Part shown: in pieces, positions 3,004-46,133 of the stretch
How the letters are laid out: every line of letters starts with the position of its first letter
How positions within the stretch are numbered: the stretch's first letter is position 1
NCBI GenBank assembly: GCA_019057475.1
Contig: DXJO01000026.1
Span: forward strand, 1 to 58,194
Length of the DNA stretch: 58,194 nt
Direction of reading: 5' to 3'
Source: Candidatus Thorarchaeota archaeon
Lineage (GTDB): Archaea; Asgardarchaeota; Thorarchaeia; Thorarchaeales; Thorarchaeaceae
Made by a program: the position numbers and the translations under genes
The notes under the pieces: model-generated
Database searches by the model: none
What the model was told of the DNA's origin: nothing
The model's input: the letters and a program-made list of their open reading frames with translations, nothing else

Positions 3004-3585
3004 CTAACCTGACGAAGGTGGGCGTTCGCCAAGCCAGATTCGCTCCCAGAGGTTTTCACCCCTGTTTCTGATGAGAATGATCAACCAGAGAACAATCATG
3101 ATCACATTGAGGAACACATTTGCTCTTAGAAACCCCAGCTGAATATCCCCCTCAAAAGCAAACAGAAGCACGAGTGGTCCCACGATGTGGAGAGGATCGA
3201 CCCATGGCCAGAATACAGGGTTGTACCAATGCATAGGAATGTCAACCAGGACATGGAAGAGTGCTCCTAACATGCATGAAAGCACAAGCAATGGAGTGAT
3301 TCTGCAGGCATTATTCAATTGTTCGCGATCAACTCCAAACAGACCTGAGATGATTGGCGGATACAGGAACCTGGTCACGAGTACAGCAAGGAGTGTTCCA
3401 AGAGTGAGGACTCCCACTAGGCTGTGTAGAACAAGGTGATCAAGCAGATTCGGAAAAAAGAAGAATAGGATTAGAACCTCTACATCCGGGATGACTGAAC
3501 CCACAATGAGTCCGGGGAATGACAATCGCCGGTCAGCCTTTGATAGACCGTAACCCACAGGGTAGTGCATTGGCGTGAAGGGCAT
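3004..3585 (-). CDS. DUF4184-like integral membrane protein
   Basis: Polytopic membrane protein of 193 residues with about five hydrophobic helices. The N-terminus (MPFTPMHYPVGYGL) followed by a first helix ending in GSVIPDVEVL resembles the DUF4184 family, which carries conserved His and Asp residues near the first helices. Further His residues occur in the third helix region (GALFHVLVDIPMHW). No enzymatic role is established for this family. The gene is monocistronic, convergent with the Lrp-type regulator on one side and divergent from the carbonic anhydrase gene on the other. Family call moderately sure, function unknown. Confidence 0.65.
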   Translation of the reverse strand: MPFTPMHYPVGYGLSKADRRLSFPGLIVGSVIPDVEVLILFFFFPNLLDHLVLHSLVGVLTLGTLLAVLVTRFLYPPIISGLFGVDREQLNNACRITPLLVLSCMLGALFHVLVDIPMHWYNPVFWPWVDPLHIVGPLVLLFAFEGDIQLGFLRANVFLNVIMIVLWLIILIRNRGENLWERIWLGERPPSSG

Positions 3586-3713: not shown

Positions 3714-4205
3714 ATGCCAAAGGTGCACGCAAAGGCCTACGTTTCTCCAAGAGCATCGTTGATTGGGGATGTTGAGGTCGGAGAAGACTCCAGCATTTGG
3801 GAATTTGCAGTCCTTCGTGCTGATATGAACTACATCCGCGTGGGCAAAGGCACGTCCATTCAAGACAACGCGACCGTTCATACAACCTTCACTAACCCCG
3901 CAATAATTGGCGACTACGTCACCGCGGGACACAACTGTGTGATTCATGCCTGCGAGATTGGAAACCGTGTTGTAGTTGGTATCGGTGCGATAGTCCTTAC
4001 TGGGGCGAAGGTAGGCGATGACTGTGTCATTGGTGCCGGATCGGTCGTCACTGAAAACGCGGTAATCCCTCCCAACTCACTAGTTCTAGGTATTCCTGGA
4101 AAGGTCAAGAAGGACGTTCCCGAAGGGTTGAAGGACGCCTTCATGGTTGGTGCGGAGCTCTACATCGAGCTTGGCAGGAAACACAAAGAGGCATTATCAG
4201 ACTAA
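3714..4205 (+). CDS. Gamma-class carbonic anhydrase-like hexapeptide-repeat protein
   Basis: Left-handed beta-helix protein of 163 residues in the gamma carbonic anhydrase/YrdA/PaaY group. Hexapeptide repeats run from about residue 10 to 130. The three metal-binding His positions are present: one in NATVHTTF and two in TAGHNCVIHAC. Hydration of CO2 is the family reaction, but many homologues have weak or untested activity. The start at ATG 3714 gives the typical MPKVHAKAYVSPRASL opening; an earlier TTG in frame adds unrelated residues. A decayed copy of the last third of this gene lies at about 6590-6765, on the far side of the next gene. Confidence 0.88.
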   Translation: MPKVHAKAYVSPRASLIGDVEVGEDSSIWEFAVLRADMNYIRVGKGTSIQDNATVHTTFTNPAIIGDYVTAGHNCVIHACEIGNRVVVGIGAIVLTGAKVGDDCVIGAGSVVTENAVIPPNSLVLGIPGKVKKDVPEGLKDAFMVGAELYIELGRKHKEALSD

Positions 4206-4300
4206 GATCAACAGGTTTCCTGCAAACCCCCAAAAGATTCGAAAAAATCTCCCGCTAATGACAATCTATTTCTGTCGAAAGACCGTATATTCTAGGGGAA

Positions 4301-6571
4301 TTGCACTTGACAAGCGCTCAGAAGTGCAGGGCCCGGGCGGTCCTGCTTCTTGTACTCTTATTCACTTTGTTTCTCAGTTCACCATCCGCTGCAGAAGCAG
4401 TCGGTACAGGACACGGTGGCTTGTCTTCACCTGATGCTATCCTCAACAGCAATTTCACCATTTGGGGTTTCAGTGGTCATGGAGGAGACCAAGATGTATT
4501 GAATATGCATATACTTGCTGAAGCAGGTATCAAAATTGTGCATACAGAAAGCTGGTGGAATGATACCGTGAACAACCCCCTTGACATCTACTACAACGAA
4601 ACCTTCAGGACCTATGCAAAAGGAGTACTGAACTTCAGCCTTGGGCTCACAGGAGAAACTGCAGTAATAGACACTGACGACCTCTGGGCTGTGACACTCG
4701 GGGATGAGGAACCTGCATGGATCCACTATGTTGACATATTCTCAAGTCTTTCACCAGAGATTGCGAAGTACAGCGACATCTACTATGCTGAAACGGGATA
4801 TCAGCTCAAGCCAATTTATGACACGAATCTGACGGAATGTGGGGTCTTTGTGGAGTGGTTGAATGAGAAGAGTGTCTGGGTCTATAACTACATGCACGAC
4901 TATGTGAAATCCTTGATGCCACACGTGCTAGTCTTCCAACCTGTGATGATGCATCCTGTTTGGGGTCTACCTTATGAACTGTGTGCCCCGTACGAGCTCA
5001 AGGCTGACGGATATGGAACGGGCTGCTACTATGCAGTTCAGGATCCGTGGCTACTCTACGATACAACCCGGAGATATAAGACATCAATGCCGGAGAGTGA
5101 GTTTCACATGACCATATGGGGCACGATATGGGACTTCGTCAACGAGGCTGGTGATGGCCTGTACTACAAGGAGGGAAGCTATGAGCAGATGAGGCGCGAA
5201 ACCTGGATATCCTACCTCTCAGGAGCTGATGTTCTAACTTGGTTCGACTGGGGTCCACAGGACAACAACAGCTATACCTGGCGTTGGGGGCACGAGCGTA
5301 CAGACATAATGGGTCGACGCAACTGGAAGTACGTTGACAACTTGGCGGGGCAGCTAGAGAAACTGCCTGTTCTGAAGTCTGAACCTGAGGTGCTTGTGAT
5401 TGGCACTGGCTATCAGACTGGTGCGCCCATGCAGAGCATCGCTGAAGTAGGCCTATTCACGGAATGCGACTTGGTCAACCAGAGGTGTTTCGCCAAGGCA
5501 GACATCGACCTCTCGAACTACTCGTTGGTCATGGTGACTGATGGGTGGTACTATGATGAAACAGTCAGGAAGCTCAACGCCTTCGTGGAGGAGGGCGGCA
5601 ATGTGATGTTTCTGGGAGGGATACGGAGTGGTGAGGGTCCAGAAGACGAAACTGAAGCTTTCCAGATTGAGCGGAACTCAACGGAGCCGTGGTGGTGGGT
5701 CGAAGGACATTTCAGAATCAACGTGACCAAACCAAACATCTTGGATTTGGAGCTCTACCAGGAAGCACCCCTTCACGCGACCCACACAATTCAGGCGGAG
5801 AATCTCTCAAGCGACTATCACCCAATCAGCGGCTTCTATCAAGTGGACGAAAACGGAACCCCCGTAGAAATTAATGACTATCCCCTACTTCTCTACCATA
5901 ACGAGTCAAGTCCTGACAGTGGTTGGGTGATGTATTTCGGAGCAGTGCACTCTTCTACTGACTTAGGAGCAACGTGGGAAACATACGACAGGGAGAAGCA
6001 GCCAGATCTGTGGTACTTGTACAGGGAGGTTGTCAAAGCCTTTGCCAAGTTCCTAGGCATCACCAACTCAATCTCGGCAAATGAAACAGAGGACATGCTC
6101 ATCACACAAGGAGTCATCGAAGACGGCACAATCATTGCGGGAATCCATAATTTTCGAAACGAGAGCCGTAACCTGACCTACAAGCTCGATCTGTCGCAGT
6201 TCGGCTTTCCTGCTGGAAACTACTGGGTACACTCACTGGACGAAAACAGGTTAGAAGGTCAGTATGAAACAAACGGACAGATCCTAAGCTTTGGAACGCA
6301 TGTTGTGGCAAATGGAACACGGCTGTTTCTAATCTCTGAGGACAGACCCGAACCCGATTACTCCATCCAGATATTCCCACATATCCCAAGTATCGCAGAC
6401 GTGACTCCAACCACTACGACAACCACACCCGCTACGTCGACGCAGACACCCGCAACTACAGCAGATGACATATTCGGTGTCTACATTATTGTAGGAGGCA
6501 CGGTCATTGGGCTCTCAGTCTTCACCATAGTCATTGTCATGAAGAAGAGAGCAAAGCAGCAACCTCCGTAG
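4301..6571 (+). CDS. Large secreted, C-terminally anchored glycosidase-like surface protein
   Basis: Protein of 756 residues with an N-terminal signal peptide (hydrophobic VLLLVLLFTLFLSS, about residues 14-28), a long extracellular part with many N-x-S/T sites, a Thr-rich linker near residues 700-720 (TTTTTTPATSTQT), one C-terminal helix and a KKRAK stop-transfer signal. It should sit outside the membrane, held by the last helix. The region before residue 370 is rich in aromatic and acidic residues with barrel-like spacing; it is followed by a Rossmann-like stretch (LVMVTDGWYYDETVRKL, FLGG), as in beta-galactosidase-type glycosidases with a trimerisation domain. No catalytic pair can be assigned, so the enzymatic reading is tentative. 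The start is TTG. The gene lies between gamma carbonic anhydrase and its own decayed 3' copy. Confidence 0.72.
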   Translation: MHLTSAQKCRARAVLLLVLLFTLFLSSPSAAEAVGTGHGGLSSPDAILNSNFTIWGFSGHGGDQDVLNMHILAEAGIKIVHTESWWNDTVNNPLDIYYNETFRTYAKGVLNFSLGLTGETAVIDTDDLWAVTLGDEEPAWIHYVDIFSSLSPEIAKYSDIYYAETGYQLKPIYDTNLTECGVFVEWLNEKSVWVYNYMHDYVKSLMPHVLVFQPVMMHPVWGLPYELCAPYELKADGYGTGCYYAVQDPWLLYDTTRRYKTSMPESEFHMTIWGTIWDFVNEAGDGLYYKEGSYEQMRRETWISYLSGADVLTWFDWGPQDNNSYTWRWGHERTDIMGRRNWKYVDNLAGQLEKLPVLKSEPEVLVIGTGYQTGAPMQSIAEVGLFTECDLVNQRCFAKADIDLSNYSLVMVTDGWYYDETVRKLNAFVEEGGNVMFLGGIRSGEGPEDETEAFQIERNSTEPWWWVEGHFRINVTKPNILDLELYQEAPLHATHTIQAENLSSDYHPISGFYQVDENGTPVEINDYPLLLYHNESSPDSGWVMYFGAVHSSTDLGATWETYDREKQPDLWYLYREVVKAFAKFLGITNSISANETEDMLITQGVIEDGTIIAGIHNFRNESRNLTYKLDLSQFGFPAGNYWVHSLDENRLEGQYETNGQILSFGTHVVANGTRLFLISEDRPEPDYSIQIFPHIPSIADVTPTTTTTTPATSTQTPATTADDIFGVYIIVGGTVIGLSVFTIVIVMKKRAKQQPP

Positions 6572-6589
6572 AACGTATTGCACTATTGG

Positions 6590-6765
6590 GCTATTGGTCG
6601 AGCGGGTGTGGCTGGGAACTCGGCAATTTCACCCAAGTTTCCGGTGTTAGGTGTTCTGGCAAGGTCAAGAAGAAGATCCCTGAAGGGCTGAAGGAGGCTT
6701 TCATGGCTGGTGCGGAGCTGTATGTGGAGCTAGGTAGGAAGCACGCTGAAACTGGTTCAAAGTAG
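6590..6765 (+). pseudogene. Decayed 3' fragment of the gamma carbonic anhydrase gene
   Basis: This stretch aligns with the last ~175 bases of the intact gene at 3714-4205. The final 35 codons read KVKKKIPEGLKEAFMAGAEL and on to a TAG at 6763-6765, against KVKKDVPEGLKDAFMVGAEL in the intact gene. Upstream similarity continues through the ..VLGV.GK.. region, but one base is missing (GTT-CT-GGC against ATT-CCT-GGA), which breaks the frame. No start codon or 5' half is present. It is a direct repeat of the intact gene end, separated from it by the surface-protein gene. Confidence 0.88.
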
Positions 6766-6806
6766 CCGCCCTACATCGATTCATTCCTGATTCCACTCGT
6801 ATTCTA

Positions 6807-8813
6807 TCAAGCAGCATCTCTCAAACTGCGCTTTCTGAGCACATAGAACGCTAGAATCCATACTACGCCTGTAACAGCAAATGCTGCGACAAACTCCATC
6901 GGGATGGATCCCCAGAATTCGGTCAGGGAAGGTGTCCCGACAAAACGAATACTCTGAGTGCTCAACGAATCGACATCATATGAAATCAGGTCAACGAGTA
7001 TGTAGCCATCATAAAGCAGGCTCACTTCGGCTGGCTGCGTAGATACAGACAGGACGAAAGTGGTTGTGCTGTTTATCCACACAATCTCATCCAGTAGGAT
7101 TTCATTGTAGTAGCCGTAGACTCTGACTGGCACTCGCTGGGAATATGAGTATAGATTCAAGTCTTCATTCAGGTCTTCTATCGTTACGGTCAACGTATCA
7201 TCGGTCCAGTTGTAGACCACGCCAGCAAACGAATAATCAGGGAGGAACGGATTGTCGAACCAGGGTAGGAAGAACCAATCCATGTCTTGTCCACATACGA
7301 ACTCGAATGCTTCCTGCAGATCTGGCAGTGTGGCTATCTCGAAATAGTTCTGCTTGAAGAAGTGGCTCAAGCTCTCCACGAATTTCTCATGACCTATCTC
7401 CACCCTGAGCTTCTCAAGTATCAGTGGAGCTTTCGTGTAGTCAATGTATCCCACCAGTTCGGGCCTCTCATAGTTGGACTGGTTTATCACACTCCCAACA
7501 CCGAATTCCTCGTGGTGAGTTCGTACGGTGTCAAGATAGCGATAGTACTGCAAATACTCCCAATCGGAGTAGTAGACTTCACCGTAGTAATTGTGCGACC
7601 AGCAGGTCAGACCCTCGTCAAGGAAACCCCAGTCAATAGAGTCATCTCCGACCAGTTGAGACCACCACTGATGGGCGACCTCATGCACAACAACCAGCTC
7701 CAAAAACTCTGGATAAAGGCTTCCTGCTCTCACGCTCTCAAGCGCCCCACGAGTCATGTACACTTGACAGGGGTATTCCATGCCGCCATAGAATGCATGC
7801 TGCTCCACAATGTTAAGGGTCGAGTACGGATACACCCCATAAGTTTCGTTCAATAAAGTGAGTGTCAGAATGGCCCACTCCAGTACATCATCCTCCCATT
7901 CAGGTTGAGAGTCTGGGAGATAGAAACTACTCACGGTCACACCGTTCACGTTTCCAGACTCCACCTGATAGTGTCTGGATGCTGAGAAAGTGACCTCTCG
8001 CACTGGCAAAATCGGGTCGAAGTGATAGGTCGTGCTCTCTCCGTCAGAATCGCTCCCTATCAGCTCCCCCGTGGCAGCCACGGTCATACCATCTGGGGTG
8101 TTCACGCAGAAATCATAGAACGCCATGTCAATGTAGAATGGATCACCAAAACCCACGTAGGGGTCGGTATTCCAGCCATCGAACTTGTCGTACACACAGG
8201 GAATTGGGTAGCTACTAGAAAAGGTGTAGATCCGTGACTGGCTGCCATCTTCTCCGTGCACGTTCGCCCTGTCAAGGCCGTCAGGGAGGGTTGTGATGAA
8301 CTCAATGTGAAATTCCGTCCTCTCACCAGGCTGTAGAGCTTCAGTCAGGTTCACCCACATCAACTGCTGCTCCCACAGGACACCATAGGGAAGTTCCTGG
8401 GCCGGATTTCCCATTGTAGTTACATTCAAGATTGTGATGTTCCCCTGTCTACTATCATACAACATCCCAGACGGATAGAGATGAAACGGTATTCGAGAAA
8501 ATGGGACCGGATCATCATTGTAGAAATCGACCGTTAGATTGCCTTCAACAATCGACTCAACCTCGTTCAGTTTCACGGACAGGTTGAGATGTGAGAATTC
8601 AGTACCCGTGAAGTTGCCCACAGAGAACTCATCGTAGTCCGCAATGATAATTGAATCGATGACTGGAGGGGTTCCAGACGACTGATACGTATCTTGTGAT
8701 TCCAATAGGCCTTCATCCCCGTTTATCGGGACAAGACTGACAGAAACTAGCAGAACAAAGATTAGGAGCCGTGGCACACCTCTCATCGTCATCACTCTCA
8801 TCAATGGTAACAA
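6807..8813 (-). CDS. Membrane-anchored M1-family metallopeptidase
   Basis: Zinc aminopeptidase-like protein of up to 668 residues. The zinc site is intact: HEVAH at about 377-381 with the third ligand Glu at about 400 (FLDEGL), the exact M1 spacing. GGMEYP at about 343-348 takes the place of the substrate-binding GAMEN loop. A signal peptide (LLIFVLLVSVSLVP) and a C-terminal helix (about 640-660) followed by RKRS place the catalytic part outside the cell, bound to the membrane. Several ATG codons lie within the first ten codons; 8813 is the most upstream, 8792 or 8786 are equally possible. A role in degrading external peptides is inferred. It is convergent with the carbonic anhydrase remnant. 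Confidence 0.9.
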   Translation of the reverse strand: MLPLMRVMTMRGVPRLLIFVLLVSVSLVPINGDEGLLESQDTYQSSGTPPVIDSIIIADYDEFSVGNFTGTEFSHLNLSVKLNEVESIVEGNLTVDFYNDDPVPFSRIPFHLYPSGMLYDSRQGNITILNVTTMGNPAQELPYGVLWEQQLMWVNLTEALQPGERTEFHIEFITTLPDGLDRANVHGEDGSQSRIYTFSSSYPIPCVYDKFDGWNTDPYVGFGDPFYIDMAFYDFCVNTPDGMTVAATGELIGSDSDGESTTYHFDPILPVREVTFSASRHYQVESGNVNGVTVSSFYLPDSQPEWEDDVLEWAILTLTLLNETYGVYPYSTLNIVEQHAFYGGMEYPCQVYMTRGALESVRAGSLYPEFLELVVVHEVAHQWWSQLVGDDSIDWGFLDEGLTCWSHNYYGEVYYSDWEYLQYYRYLDTVRTHHEEFGVGSVINQSNYERPELVGYIDYTKAPLILEKLRVEIGHEKFVESLSHFFKQNYFEIATLPDLQEAFEFVCGQDMDWFFLPWFDNPFLPDYSFAGVVYNWTDDTLTVTIEDLNEDLNLYSYSQRVPVRVYGYYNEILLDEIVWINSTTTFVLSVSTQPAEVSLLYDGYILVDLISYDVDSLSTQSIRFVGTPSLTEFWGSIPMEFVAAFAVTGVVWILAFYVLRKRSLRDAA

Positions 8814-44500: not shown

Positions 44501-44671
44501 GATGGCGACATAAGCCCCCCCGATGCTCACTGTCCTCTCAATCAGATGAGCATGATGACCGCCGTCAGCGAGGGCGAGGGCGGCGCTGATTCCTGCCATT
44601 CCAGCACCGATTATGGCAACGTCAGTGGGCTTGGGCTTTGCCGCTGACTTCTTTGTTGCCTTGCTGACCAT
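41570..44671 (-). CDS. Double HdrA flavoprotein without MvhD
   Basis: Second large HdrA-type flavoprotein, 1033 residues. It repeats the layout of the protein at 28324: first FAD fold (IGAGMAGISAALALADGG, LECSACVMTP) with ferredoxin motifs CTGCGLCIAACP and CIGCGTCASVCP, the HdrA N-terminal domain (FICHCGGIIG) near 460, a second FAD fold near 604 (VGGGVSGMSAALDIARKG), and two C-terminal ferredoxin motifs (CVGCDLC...CP, CEGCGACCSICP). It lacks MvhD and has no adjacent hdrBC, so it may borrow one of the other HdrBC pairs. I start at ATG 44671, since the decayed 5' copy at 45997-46133 keeps this ATG but not the one at 44680. Confidence 0.93.
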   Translation of the reverse strand: MVSKATKKSAAKPKPTDVAIIGAGMAGISAALALADGGHHAHLIERTVSIGGAYVAIYKIFPALECSACVMTPLTSFVGKHLNITIHSLSEVKKVKGKAGDFTLTIHKKARYVDENKCTGCGLCIAACPVEVPNHYDMGLSLRKAIYMNFPQQIPLLAAIDRESCIGCGTCASVCPQDCIMYDDEDKEYDLNVGAIINAAGFEEYQPTDYAEYGYGVFPNVVTTLEYDRQTHPTGPTDAHMVRPSDGREPETIMFVNCVGSRDVRENIEGYSHHCNRVCCSFGLKLAQVTRMHYSKEHCKIIYTYMDMRTCGKLLEEFLWDSQHNQDIDFIRGRIAEINEDPDTHDLMVKLEDTEKGEIQEIKVNMVVLNSSFRPAEGSEELAKVLGIELDETGWVKEKNPNSGALETTRDGIYMAGCIHGPKDGTDTVNEGKGAAMAAQSILPLPHPPVPEAVPPLEVGEEPRVGVFICHCGGIIGNVIDSPGLAQWASHLPNVAYSIDYIFMCSDPGQEFITEAIKEHKLNRVVVGSCSPLQHEDTFRRALEAAGISGYYLVGPVGLREMIALVNANDPPDVRQEKAQDMIRSGVAKAINNEIVPVKSVDVTRVAMIVGGGVSGMSAALDIARKGFDVILVEKENKLGGRLNDLYNLFPKMESAQEIVDDLTARVEKEKRIKVLLNSKPVLREGSYGNYGITIQNTETGEQEVHTIGSMVITTGTDTYDPKKGEYGWEEVPGVITTLQLERMIRNGELKKPPKNPVFIHCVGSRQSPGEGNRYCSRACCSAVITMQHELKEMFPDIRVFSAYKEHIRPFANNMEEMWRENRQKGVSYLRWIREKPVTVEKAPDADEAIVTVYDTLSQETFKIRSNMVVLALGLEAPHDVNELTKALGINRGQDGFLLEVHMKFKPVETTVPGIFLGATYAKNVSDSINQARGAASAACAPLNLGTVNIELLTADVDEDLCVGCDLCHYSEICPYDAVSMVEVSPGVKKSVTNELACEGCGACCSICPTGARDLRWWREKSFYDQIEEMLRE

Positions 44672-44780
44672 GCTCTGCATTCTCCGGGTTGTGGCTACAG
44701 CGACGGCGGGAACTAGCGGGGTGATATAATCTTTCTGTCGGAGGCCAATACTAATGAGGGGCGGCCACTGCTAGGCGCAG

Positions 44781-45920
44781 TTAGTCGGGTGGTCCTTCCT
44801 CAGTTTTCAGCAGCGAATCGAGTTTCCAGGCCAGAAACAGTGCATAGATCAGTGGCGAGATTCCTAGGGATGCAACAGCTAGCGCTGGAAGGGGGTCTAC
44901 TCGCGGGAGGTATACGTCCCTACTGACTTCAACAGAAAATTGAATCTCAACGTCATTCTCGATTCTATCCAGTGATAGAGTGTGCGTCAACGTGTCGTTT
45001 ACAGGAAAGCTCAACCACCACTGCCCATCGATGGTGGCTTTCGCCAAGACCATCTGTTCCTCCTGAAAGCTGTCGGAGATACTGAGTAAAACCGGAGTTC
45101 CGTCATGAGTCATTGAATGCACCCGCATGGCGTAGCTCCCCGTGTCACTTGAATACGGGATTGTAAGATTGAAAGAGGCTTCAGAATGGGATTCGTTCAA
45201 AAAAGCCAAGTGTAGTTGGTCTGACACTATTTCTGTGTGTTTGATCAATCTATAGTCTTGCGCGTAATATCCTCTCAGAACCGGCGCAAACAGGGATGCG
45301 CAAAGTAGGATTAGAAGGATGACAGCTAATGGCCCTTGGCGTCGCGACCATCTTACTTGGGCTCGTGTCTCATCCCGCGATTTTCTTCTGCAATTCCTTT
45401 CAATGAGAATCAACCTATGCCCTGCATAGACACTCAATCCAAAGGATAGCAGAAGAACTCCCATATTCGATTGAATCAGAGAAACCGACCATACAATCGG
45501 AGGAGGTATTGCGTGCCATTCTCTGATTTCTATCGAAACAGCAACATCTTGGCCCTGCCAGGTGATATTTATCCACCATTCATTGACTGATGGCCTATCA
45601 ATGACGACTGGCACGCCAACAATCTCGGACACATTGCGTAGGTGCAAATAGGTTTCCGATAGACCGAGTGCCAAGATTGAAACATAGGTTTCATTTGTCC
45701 TCAGCTCGAAGAGCTCAACTCTCGTTATGTATGAAACAACATTGTGTTGAATAGTCGGACTTTCCTCGGACAGTGTAGTGCTGTATTTGTATGATTGAAA
45801 CCCCTCTATCGAATCATAAGAGTAGGAAGGCCATAGTGGAATCGAAATAGTGCCCAGTACGCCGAGGAGTAGCAAGACTGACATCATGACTACTCTGGGT
45901 CTGGAACAGTCAATTGACAT
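44781..45920 (-). CDS. Membrane protein of unknown function
   Basis: Protein of 379 residues with about four hydrophobic helices: near 11-31 (signal-anchor), 150-170, 197-217 and 345-370. Between them lie two extracellular-looking, beta-rich parts with N-x-S/T sites (about 35-145 and 220-340). A basic loop (RNCRRKSRDETRAQVRWSRR) between helices 2 and 3 should face the cytoplasm. No known domain is recognised. The gene is enclosed by the intact 5' end of hdrA on one side and a decayed copy of that same 5' end on the other, so it may be an inserted cassette. Confidence 0.65.
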   Translation of the reverse strand: MSIDCSRPRVVMMSVLLLLGVLGTISIPLWPSYSYDSIEGFQSYKYSTTLSEESPTIQHNVVSYITRVELFELRTNETYVSILALGLSETYLHLRNVSEIVGVPVVIDRPSVNEWWINITWQGQDVAVSIEIREWHAIPPPIVWSVSLIQSNMGVLLLSFGLSVYAGHRLILIERNCRRKSRDETRAQVRWSRRQGPLAVILLILLCASLFAPVLRGYYAQDYRLIKHTEIVSDQLHLAFLNESHSEASFNLTIPYSSDTGSYAMRVHSMTHDGTPVLLSISDSFQEEQMVLAKATIDGQWWLSFPVNDTLTHTLSLDRIENDVEIQFSVEVSRDVYLPRVDPLPALAVASLGISPLIYALFLAWKLDSLLKTEEGPPD

Positions 45921-45996
45921 CTAGTACTCCTCTTAAACAGAAAGCCAATGCATGTACTAGGGGAAGCTTTGCGAAAAGGTTTTCCATGGACTTCAA

Positions 45997-46133
45997 CCCG
46001 CACCGATTATGGCAACGTCAGTAGGCTTGGACTTTGCCGATGACATCTTGGATGCCTTGCTGACCATGTTCTGTGTTCTCCAAACTATGGCTACAACGAC
46101 AGCGGGAACTAGCGGGGCGACACAATCTTTCTG
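45997..46133 (-). pseudogene. Decayed copy of the hdrA promoter and first 24 codons
   Basis: These 137 bases align without gaps to 44601-44737, with about 20 mismatches by hand count (about 85% identical). The copy contains the ATG and reads MVSKASKMSSAKSKPTDVAI then IGAG, after which a stop follows at once, exactly where the intact protein continues into its FAD loop. Upstream, the intact TATA element GATTATATCACC has become GATTGTGTCGCC, so the promoter is probably dead. It is a direct repeat of the intact hdrA start, on the other side of the membrane protein gene. Confidence 0.88.

Follow-up and report, generated by a model that had tools for sequence, protein, structure and literature searches.

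When e14 or phage 21 integrates in icd of Escherichia coli, the 3′ end of the host gene is exchanged for a slightly different one, and the original end is left behind as a pseudogene fragment. For rhs genes, displacement of the C-terminal tip has been proposed to proceed by a single crossover with a circular intermediate (PMC2935791), and in the type VI clusters of Vibrio, effector modules are inserted by homology-facilitated illegitimate recombination (PMC5361080). Insertion with long target duplication was first described in Helicobacter pylori, where restriction-modification genes were involved (Nobusato et al. 2000, as cited in PMC1643837). Transposed non-transposon genes of Arabidopsis have flanking direct repeats that are homologous to the empty target site, for which a circle-and-reinsert model is given (PMC2869330).

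Here we describe a locus of this general kind in a Thorarchaeota genome (G000; 3.34 Mb in 56 contigs, metagenome-type assembly, 96% complete). The window, that is, the whole stretch of DNA analyzed, is the complete contig C6 of 58,194 bases. In it, a surface-protein gene lies downstream of a gene that we call gCA, for gamma-carbonic-anhydrase-like; the name comes from the sequence only, and the product is a putative enzyme. Unlike e14 and phage 21, the insert at gCA has neither an integrase nor phage genes. It shares with rhs tip displacement (PMC2935791) a new 3′ end on a conserved gene and an old end shunted downstream. In rhs, however, the tip that is gained forms a domain of the encoded protein itself, whereas gCA, a hexapeptide enzyme-like gene and not an rhs or polymorphic-toxin gene, gains an enzyme tail of a few residues, and the meaningful cargo is a separate downstream gene. 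As with the Vibrio modules (PMC5361080), a homologous upstream stretch anchors the incoming DNA and old material is kept downstream, but there are no effector or immunity genes, and the junction on the right falls inside the gCA homology. The H. pylori insertions with long target duplication (PMC1643837) resemble the loci of G000 in having a strain-specific gene between long repeats that are single-copy elsewhere, with no transposase. They differ in their restriction-modification cargo, compared with a surface or membrane protein in an Asgard archaeon host, and at the gCA locus the left copy ends in ∼58 foreign bases, its end having been replaced as well as duplicated. The Arabidopsis case concerns a eukaryote, and the accessible portion of its description maps no recombination mosaic inside the target gene (PMC2869330). 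Of these kinds, rhs tip displacement and Vibrio module insertion come closer to the gCA locus than long target duplication does.

Events of this kind are known, and the gCA locus adds a further example. What seems new is that the mosaic evidence is clean, that the host is an Asgard archaeon, and that the footprint recurs with genes for membrane and surface proteins; a limited literature search yielded no paper on such insertions in Thorarchaeota. Most of what is known of Asgard archaea comes from assembled genomes, and gene entry into their chromosomes has been largely unobserved. At the gCA locus, the junctions can be mapped to tens of bases, close relatives have empty sites, and there are signs of more than one recombination event. 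The locus points to a route by which surface genes are slotted beside housekeeping genes with no dedicated recombinase.

A gCA-end repeat around a surface-protein gene and its empty site in congeners

We compared the window with six congeners (G001 to G006) and with about forty further genomes of the same class. The congener G002 is 52% complete and had no gCA match of this type; comparisons of the gCA locus rest on G001, G003, G004, G005, and G006. The features of the locus, by position in the window, are as follows.

2019-2975, + strand: Lrp/AsnC-type regulator gene, conserved left flank (Pfam AsnC_trans_reg and HTH_24; syntenic in G004 and G005)
3004-3585, − strand: DUF4184 membrane protein gene, conserved left neighbor of gCA (Pfam PF13803; 88-91% identity to congeners)
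3714-4147, + strand: native (genus-type) part of gCA (breakpoint 4147, two-log-unit interval 4134-4160)
4148-4205, + strand: foreign 3′ end of intact gCA, encoding ...IELGRKHKEALSD (novel sites; HK-type tail)
4206-4300, + strand: foreign intergenic stretch with the surface gene's leader, without similarity to congener loci
4301-6571, + strand: inserted surface-protein gene for a putative GH42/beta-galactosidase-like ectoprotein (ORF; absent from the locus in congeners)
6595-6655, + strand: decayed genus-type gCA, the portion of the fragment that is a pseudogene (states not seen in any congener at 18 of 61 sites)
6656-6765, + strand: native gCA 3′ end (...HAETGSK stop), displaced downstream and little decayed (novel states at 2 of 110 sites)
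6807-8813, − strand: M1-family peptidase gene, native right flank of gCA (Pfam Peptidase_M1; directly after gCA in five congeners)

The gCA ORF (3714-4205, + strand) is intact and its product has hexapeptide repeats. Its top NCBIfam model is gamma carbonic anhydrase (NF050158), with a score of 145 bits that lies below the 250-bit cut-off, and we therefore use the label "gamma-carbonic-anhydrase-like." A preliminary description of this DNA had listed an intact gamma carbonic anhydrase at 3714-4205; the frame is open as stated, but the family score falls short and the 3′ end is foreign, making the gene a chimera.

Downstream of the surface gene, part of gCA recurs as a direct repeat. The segments 4096-4184 and 6656-6744 are 81% identical over 89 bases without gaps, and the longer pair 4056-4184 and 6617-6744 is 76% identical over 129 bases (E 9e-21). 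Leftward to 6595, homology of the fragment to congener gCAs is weaker but significant, with scores of 32-42 against 18.7 ± 2.7 for dinucleotide shuffles, at most 1 in 1,000 of which scored as high. Near 6655 the fragment is frameshifted by 1 base, and further to its left there is a gap of 3 bases; the exact runs common to the two gCA ends are short (∼12 bases). The frameshifted direct repeat of the gCA 3′ end that had been proposed at first (4026-4205 against 6587-6765) is thus significant, and its limits were placed correctly to within ∼10 bases. At the window locus the gCA-end repeat amounts to ∼110-170 bp; it is single-copy in congeners.

In all five congeners with the locus (G001, G003, G004, G005, and G006), a single complete gCA abuts the M1 gene without a surface gene, and the oppositely oriented M1-peptidase gene lies ∼35 bases past the gCA stop. 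Where the congener contigs reach, the genes for AdoHcy hydrolase, Lrp, and DUF4184 are common to the left flank, and an acyl-CoA-synthetase-like gene and the next ORF to the right. Both flanks are syntenic with the congeners, at ∼85-95% identity to the nearest one. The empty site that the preliminary description had anticipated in relatives is therefore present in five congeners, and two complete anhydrase genes around the surface gene were seen in no relative. Plain tandem duplication followed by decay, which had been judged inadequate from the outset, can be ruled out, as gCA is single and the surface gene absent in the five congeners with the locus.

The two gCA ends are mosaic

Up to position 4095, 6 of 382 sites of the intact gCA are unlike every congener; from 4144 onward, 15 of 59 sites carry states absent from all congeners, mostly alleles of other genera. 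A chimera model with a break at 4147, in which the donor expectation was set to other-genus divergence, was better than an all-native gCA model by 38 log units. The tail of the intact gCA, HKEALSD, is the HK type of other genera, and the congener tail, HAETGSK, is of the HAE type. The adjoining stretch 4206-4300 had no blastn match in the loci compared other than itself, and class-wide there was no clear match past 4195.

The fragment downstream of the surface gene has a different make-up. Positions 6656-6799 are 90% identical to G004 over 144 bases that span the native gCA end and its flank. To the left, at 6595-6655, homology is significant only against genus gCAs, and the changes are even over codon positions (6:6:6), with several at sites invariant in all orthologues compared. 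In a conservative alignment, 15 of 52 sites on the left of the fragment were novel versus 2 of 110 on the right (Fisher p 6.5e-7). The transition from decayed to fresh sequence corresponds to the equivalent of 4089-4117, whereas the breakpoint in the intact gCA lies at 4134-4160; between ∼4093 and 4134, both copies contain host-like sequence.

Taken together, these data show that the intact gCA is a chimera, native to ∼4147 and then continued by a foreign end that keeps the frame open, and that the resident gCA's own end has been displaced downstream, where it is still joined to its native flank (6656-6765). What had been described as a decayed copy of the gene is decayed gCA only over its left ∼60 bases, the right side being the native gCA end. 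Over seven genes, four-fold-site divergence between G000 and G004 was 0.11-0.29 in total, about half of it per lineage. The left part of the fragment has a corrected divergence of ∼0.38 (from 18 of 61 sites), which exceeds that range. The decay therefore predates the right-hand junction, and we infer that the decayed piece existed before that junction was made.

The surface-protein gene

The ORF at 4301-6571 encodes 756 amino acids, or 754 from the likely start TTG at 4307. The predicted protein has a signal peptide and a Thr-rich linker, together with a transmembrane segment at the C-terminal end and a basic tail, in agreement with the initial view of a 756-residue anchored surface protein gene following gCA. 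Pfam returned no family above threshold for this protein. The trimerisation domain Glyco_hydro_42M gave a weak match in 7 of 9 members of the surface family (best E 0.002); the window protein scored 14.1 bits against it, below the gathering score of 25.8, and the Glyco_hydro_42 catalytic domain was not found in it above the gathering score. A GH42 beta-galactosidase (E 0.04) is among the few matches of the surface protein to solved structures, and an AlphaFold model, built from a two-sequence alignment, had a mean pLDDT of 31, too low for use in judging a TIM-barrel fold. Judging from the sequence and structure-database matches, the protein is likely a carbohydrate-active ectoprotein.

Relatives of the surface gene are patchy within the class. 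In a maximum-likelihood tree, the window gene paired with that of G007, which belongs to another genus (97/96), and not with that of the congener G005. The G005 surface gene (L060 4309-6552) is in turn almost identical to that of G068 (L075), from a third genus, with a path of ∼0.07 compared with ∼1.1 to the window gene, which points to a recent transfer between genera. These pairings across genera indicate that the surface-gene family moves laterally between them. The preliminary description had looked to both the phylogeny and the k-mer profile of the surface gene; the tree places it with another genus, as expected of a lateral arrival, but its composition offers no contrast with the host genome. 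A foreign composition was rejected, as both the GC content (0.498, versus 0.476 ± 0.063 for the genome) and the codon usage are ordinary for G000. Composition is thus uninformative on origin, and its ordinariness fits donors of the same class.

A search of genome collections found one contig with a relative of the surface gene (Candidatus Thorarchaeota archaeon MAG TEKIR_14), and viral collections held none. At other surface-gene loci, no convincing flanking gene-end repeats were found. At the G005 locus (L060 3502-4300 and 6610-9450), scattered short repeats (∼20-70 bp, 74-94% identity) occur around the surface gene and its neighbors; they differ in kind from the gene-end repeats. Contig C40 of G000 (L066 7369-11434) has two divergent relatives of the surface protein side by side in opposite orientation.

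Proposed history of the gCA locus

We have high confidence in a lateral insertion with replacement of the gCA end and moderate confidence in a two-stage history of homologous recombination. In the history that we think probable, a surface gene had been inserted earlier between copies of the gCA end, and homologous recombination within that repeat later joined this insertion to an empty-site allele. A laterally moving surface gene would thereby occupy a slot at the 3′ end of the housekeeping gene gCA, its entry taking place by homologous recombination in gCA's own end. The incoming DNA would have carried the gCA 3′ end of another lineage and then the surface gene, and would have met a resident single-copy gCA. 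A crossover inside gCA would have given the resident a foreign 3′ end with the frame kept open and brought in the surface gene; the same crossover would have stranded the last ∼110 bases of the resident gCA downstream, next to their native flank. Because the ∼60 bases to the left of the native end are already badly decayed, the surface gene of the donor probably lay between gCA and an old gCA remnant even before this event. Either the whole donor block may have recombined with an empty-site chromosome by two crossovers, or a circle popped out between the donor repeats may have re-integrated by one. An integrase would not be needed, and the duplicated gCA end might serve as a ready homology arm for later loss or spread of the surface gene.

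In gap-repair integration, a gap in the incoming circle is copied from the resident gene. The overlap at ∼4093-4134 would be expected if a circle broken within gCA integrated in this manner; two separate crossovers could be an alternative source. The two breakpoints lie at different positions, so that a single crossover would suffice only with a short tract of conversion or gap repair. The original proposal of an insertion at the gCA 3′ end with duplication of that end is borne out by the empty sites and the significant repeat, with the roles of the two ends swapped. Its suggested route, single-crossover integration of a circle, fits the locus but is unproven, and the uneven decay of the fragment requires an earlier duplication with recombination at a later time, not one simple step.

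A donor with gCA-HKEALSD followed by the surface gene was not found among 47 class genomes, and class-wide searches with the foreign gCA end and with the decayed part likewise gave no donor. Two further points count against the two-stage history: the decayed part is only ∼60 bases long, which leaves its age uncertain, and its similarity is to the genus and not to those other genera in which the foreign tail type occurs. The donor and the decayed copy could belong to a single lineage only if that lineage branched near the base of the genus.

The genus-type character of both fragment parts, together with the host-like sequence in both copies at ∼4093-4134, would also suit a one-step event, in which linear foreign DNA was anchored by homology at its left end and joined illegitimately at its right end, and the differences within the fragment arose by later decay. 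Such homology-facilitated illegitimate recombination, here duplicating ∼130 bases of the host gCA, has been described for bacterial gene displacement (PMC5361080; PMC3240628), and a clean 265-bp host duplication exists at another G000 locus, C21. We regard this explanation as unlikely given the sharply uneven decay of the fragment (p 6.5e-7), which a single insertion with uniform decay does not yield. A decayed left side next to a fresh right side would also be explained if the insertion were old in the G000 lineage and the right flank, from 6656 through M1, had recently been replaced through recombination with an empty-site strain. The M1 3′ region is indeed closer to G004 (85%) than to other congeners (70-76%), but G004 is the closest relative at several other genes too. 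Moreover, the decay is older than the G004 split, and perhaps than the genus, so that loss or replacement would have to be invoked for five congeners, and we find this explanation decidedly unlikely.

A replaced gene 3′ end with the original end displaced is the textbook footprint of a site-specific element, and the insert might descend from one that had an integrase and an att site in gCA, like e14 in icd, and later shrank to one gene; we give this a very slim chance. The ORFs of 4206-6594 include the surface gene as the only substantial gene, with no integrase-like ORF and no other element gene. The decayed gCA homology continues for ∼60 bases on the left side of the junction, farther than a short att core would reach, and other surface-gene loci are without flanking gene-end repeats. 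A site-specific origin is unlikely because there is no integrase and because gCA homology continues past the junction. An assembly or binning artefact might be suspected in a metagenome-type assembly of 56 contigs, but it is scarcely credible here: both flanks are syntenic with congeners at ∼85-95% identity to the nearest, and exact runs of ∼12 bases between the gCA ends are too short to mislead an assembler.

Further loci with similar scars in the genome

A scan for spaced direct repeats, which covered 1.76 Mb of the 3.34-Mb genome, identified two more loci with clear empty sites in congeners, one on contig C21 and one at 44601-46133 of the window. At C21, a gene for a 1,372-aa NosD-like/beta-helix anchored protein lies between direct repeats of 267 bp with 93% identity (L095 12164-12430 and 16906-17172), which correspond to the 3′ end of a gene for a 471-aa membrane protein. 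The empty site in G006 has one repeat copy, and the two matching sides overlap by exactly 265 bases. Changes unique to the intact copy comprise seven at third positions and two in non-coding sequence, with none elsewhere; those unique to the stranded copy are distributed 3:3:5 over codon positions and include a stop, and this copy is decayed. Unlike at the gCA locus, both repeat copies derive from the target site. With its 265-bp duplication, C21 is a close fit to insertion with long target duplication as described for H. pylori. In G001 (L156 3625-3737), ∼113 bp are left of the 471-aa gene, namely, its last 24 codons plus flank; the whole gene is present in G006. This G001 sequence is what a deletion left at the locus that carries the C21 insertion in G000.

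The second locus in the window has the following features.

44601-44737, − strand: repeat copy 1, covering the leader and 5′ end of an HdrA-like gene (direct repeat, 85% identical to 45997-46133)
44781-45920, − strand: 379-aa membrane-protein gene between the repeats (presence or absence in congeners)
45997-46133, − strand: repeat copy 2, the decayed 5′ end of the HdrA-like gene with its start codon lost (repeat alignment)

The 379-aa gene is present in G004, G005, and G006 and precisely absent from G001 and G003, which have one repeat copy with a 137-base overlap. Gain and loss are both compatible with this pattern.

These loci allow a broader but speculative idea, to which we assign a low probability. 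Single genes might pass among Thorarchaeota as cassettes without an integrase, many of them coding for membrane or surface proteins and each with 100-270 bases of a host gene end carried along or duplicated on entry, and such genes might be gained, lost, and passed between strains and genera by homologous recombination in the duplicated end. If this were true, the gCA, C21, and 44.6-46.1 kb loci would be three examples. The footprint occurs at least three times in roughly half of one genome, so that a genome-wide census could test the idea.

The scan also returned other repeats in G000. Those on contig C32 were rejected as an insertion scar, as by eye they look like transposase remnants. On contig C23 (L153 6222-6539 and 7639-7974), a 336-bp repeat with 80% identity, from the 3′ end of an ABC-transporter gene, flanks an epimerase gene, and the congener contigs end at the repeat. 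Direct repeats of 135 bp with 79% identity on contig C44 (L176 5488-5622 and 10954-11088) flank a gene for a 1,707-aa NosD-like surface protein, which adjoins another surface gene; these repeats are possibly a shared upstream region instead. On C28, repeats lie around a single gene in G000.
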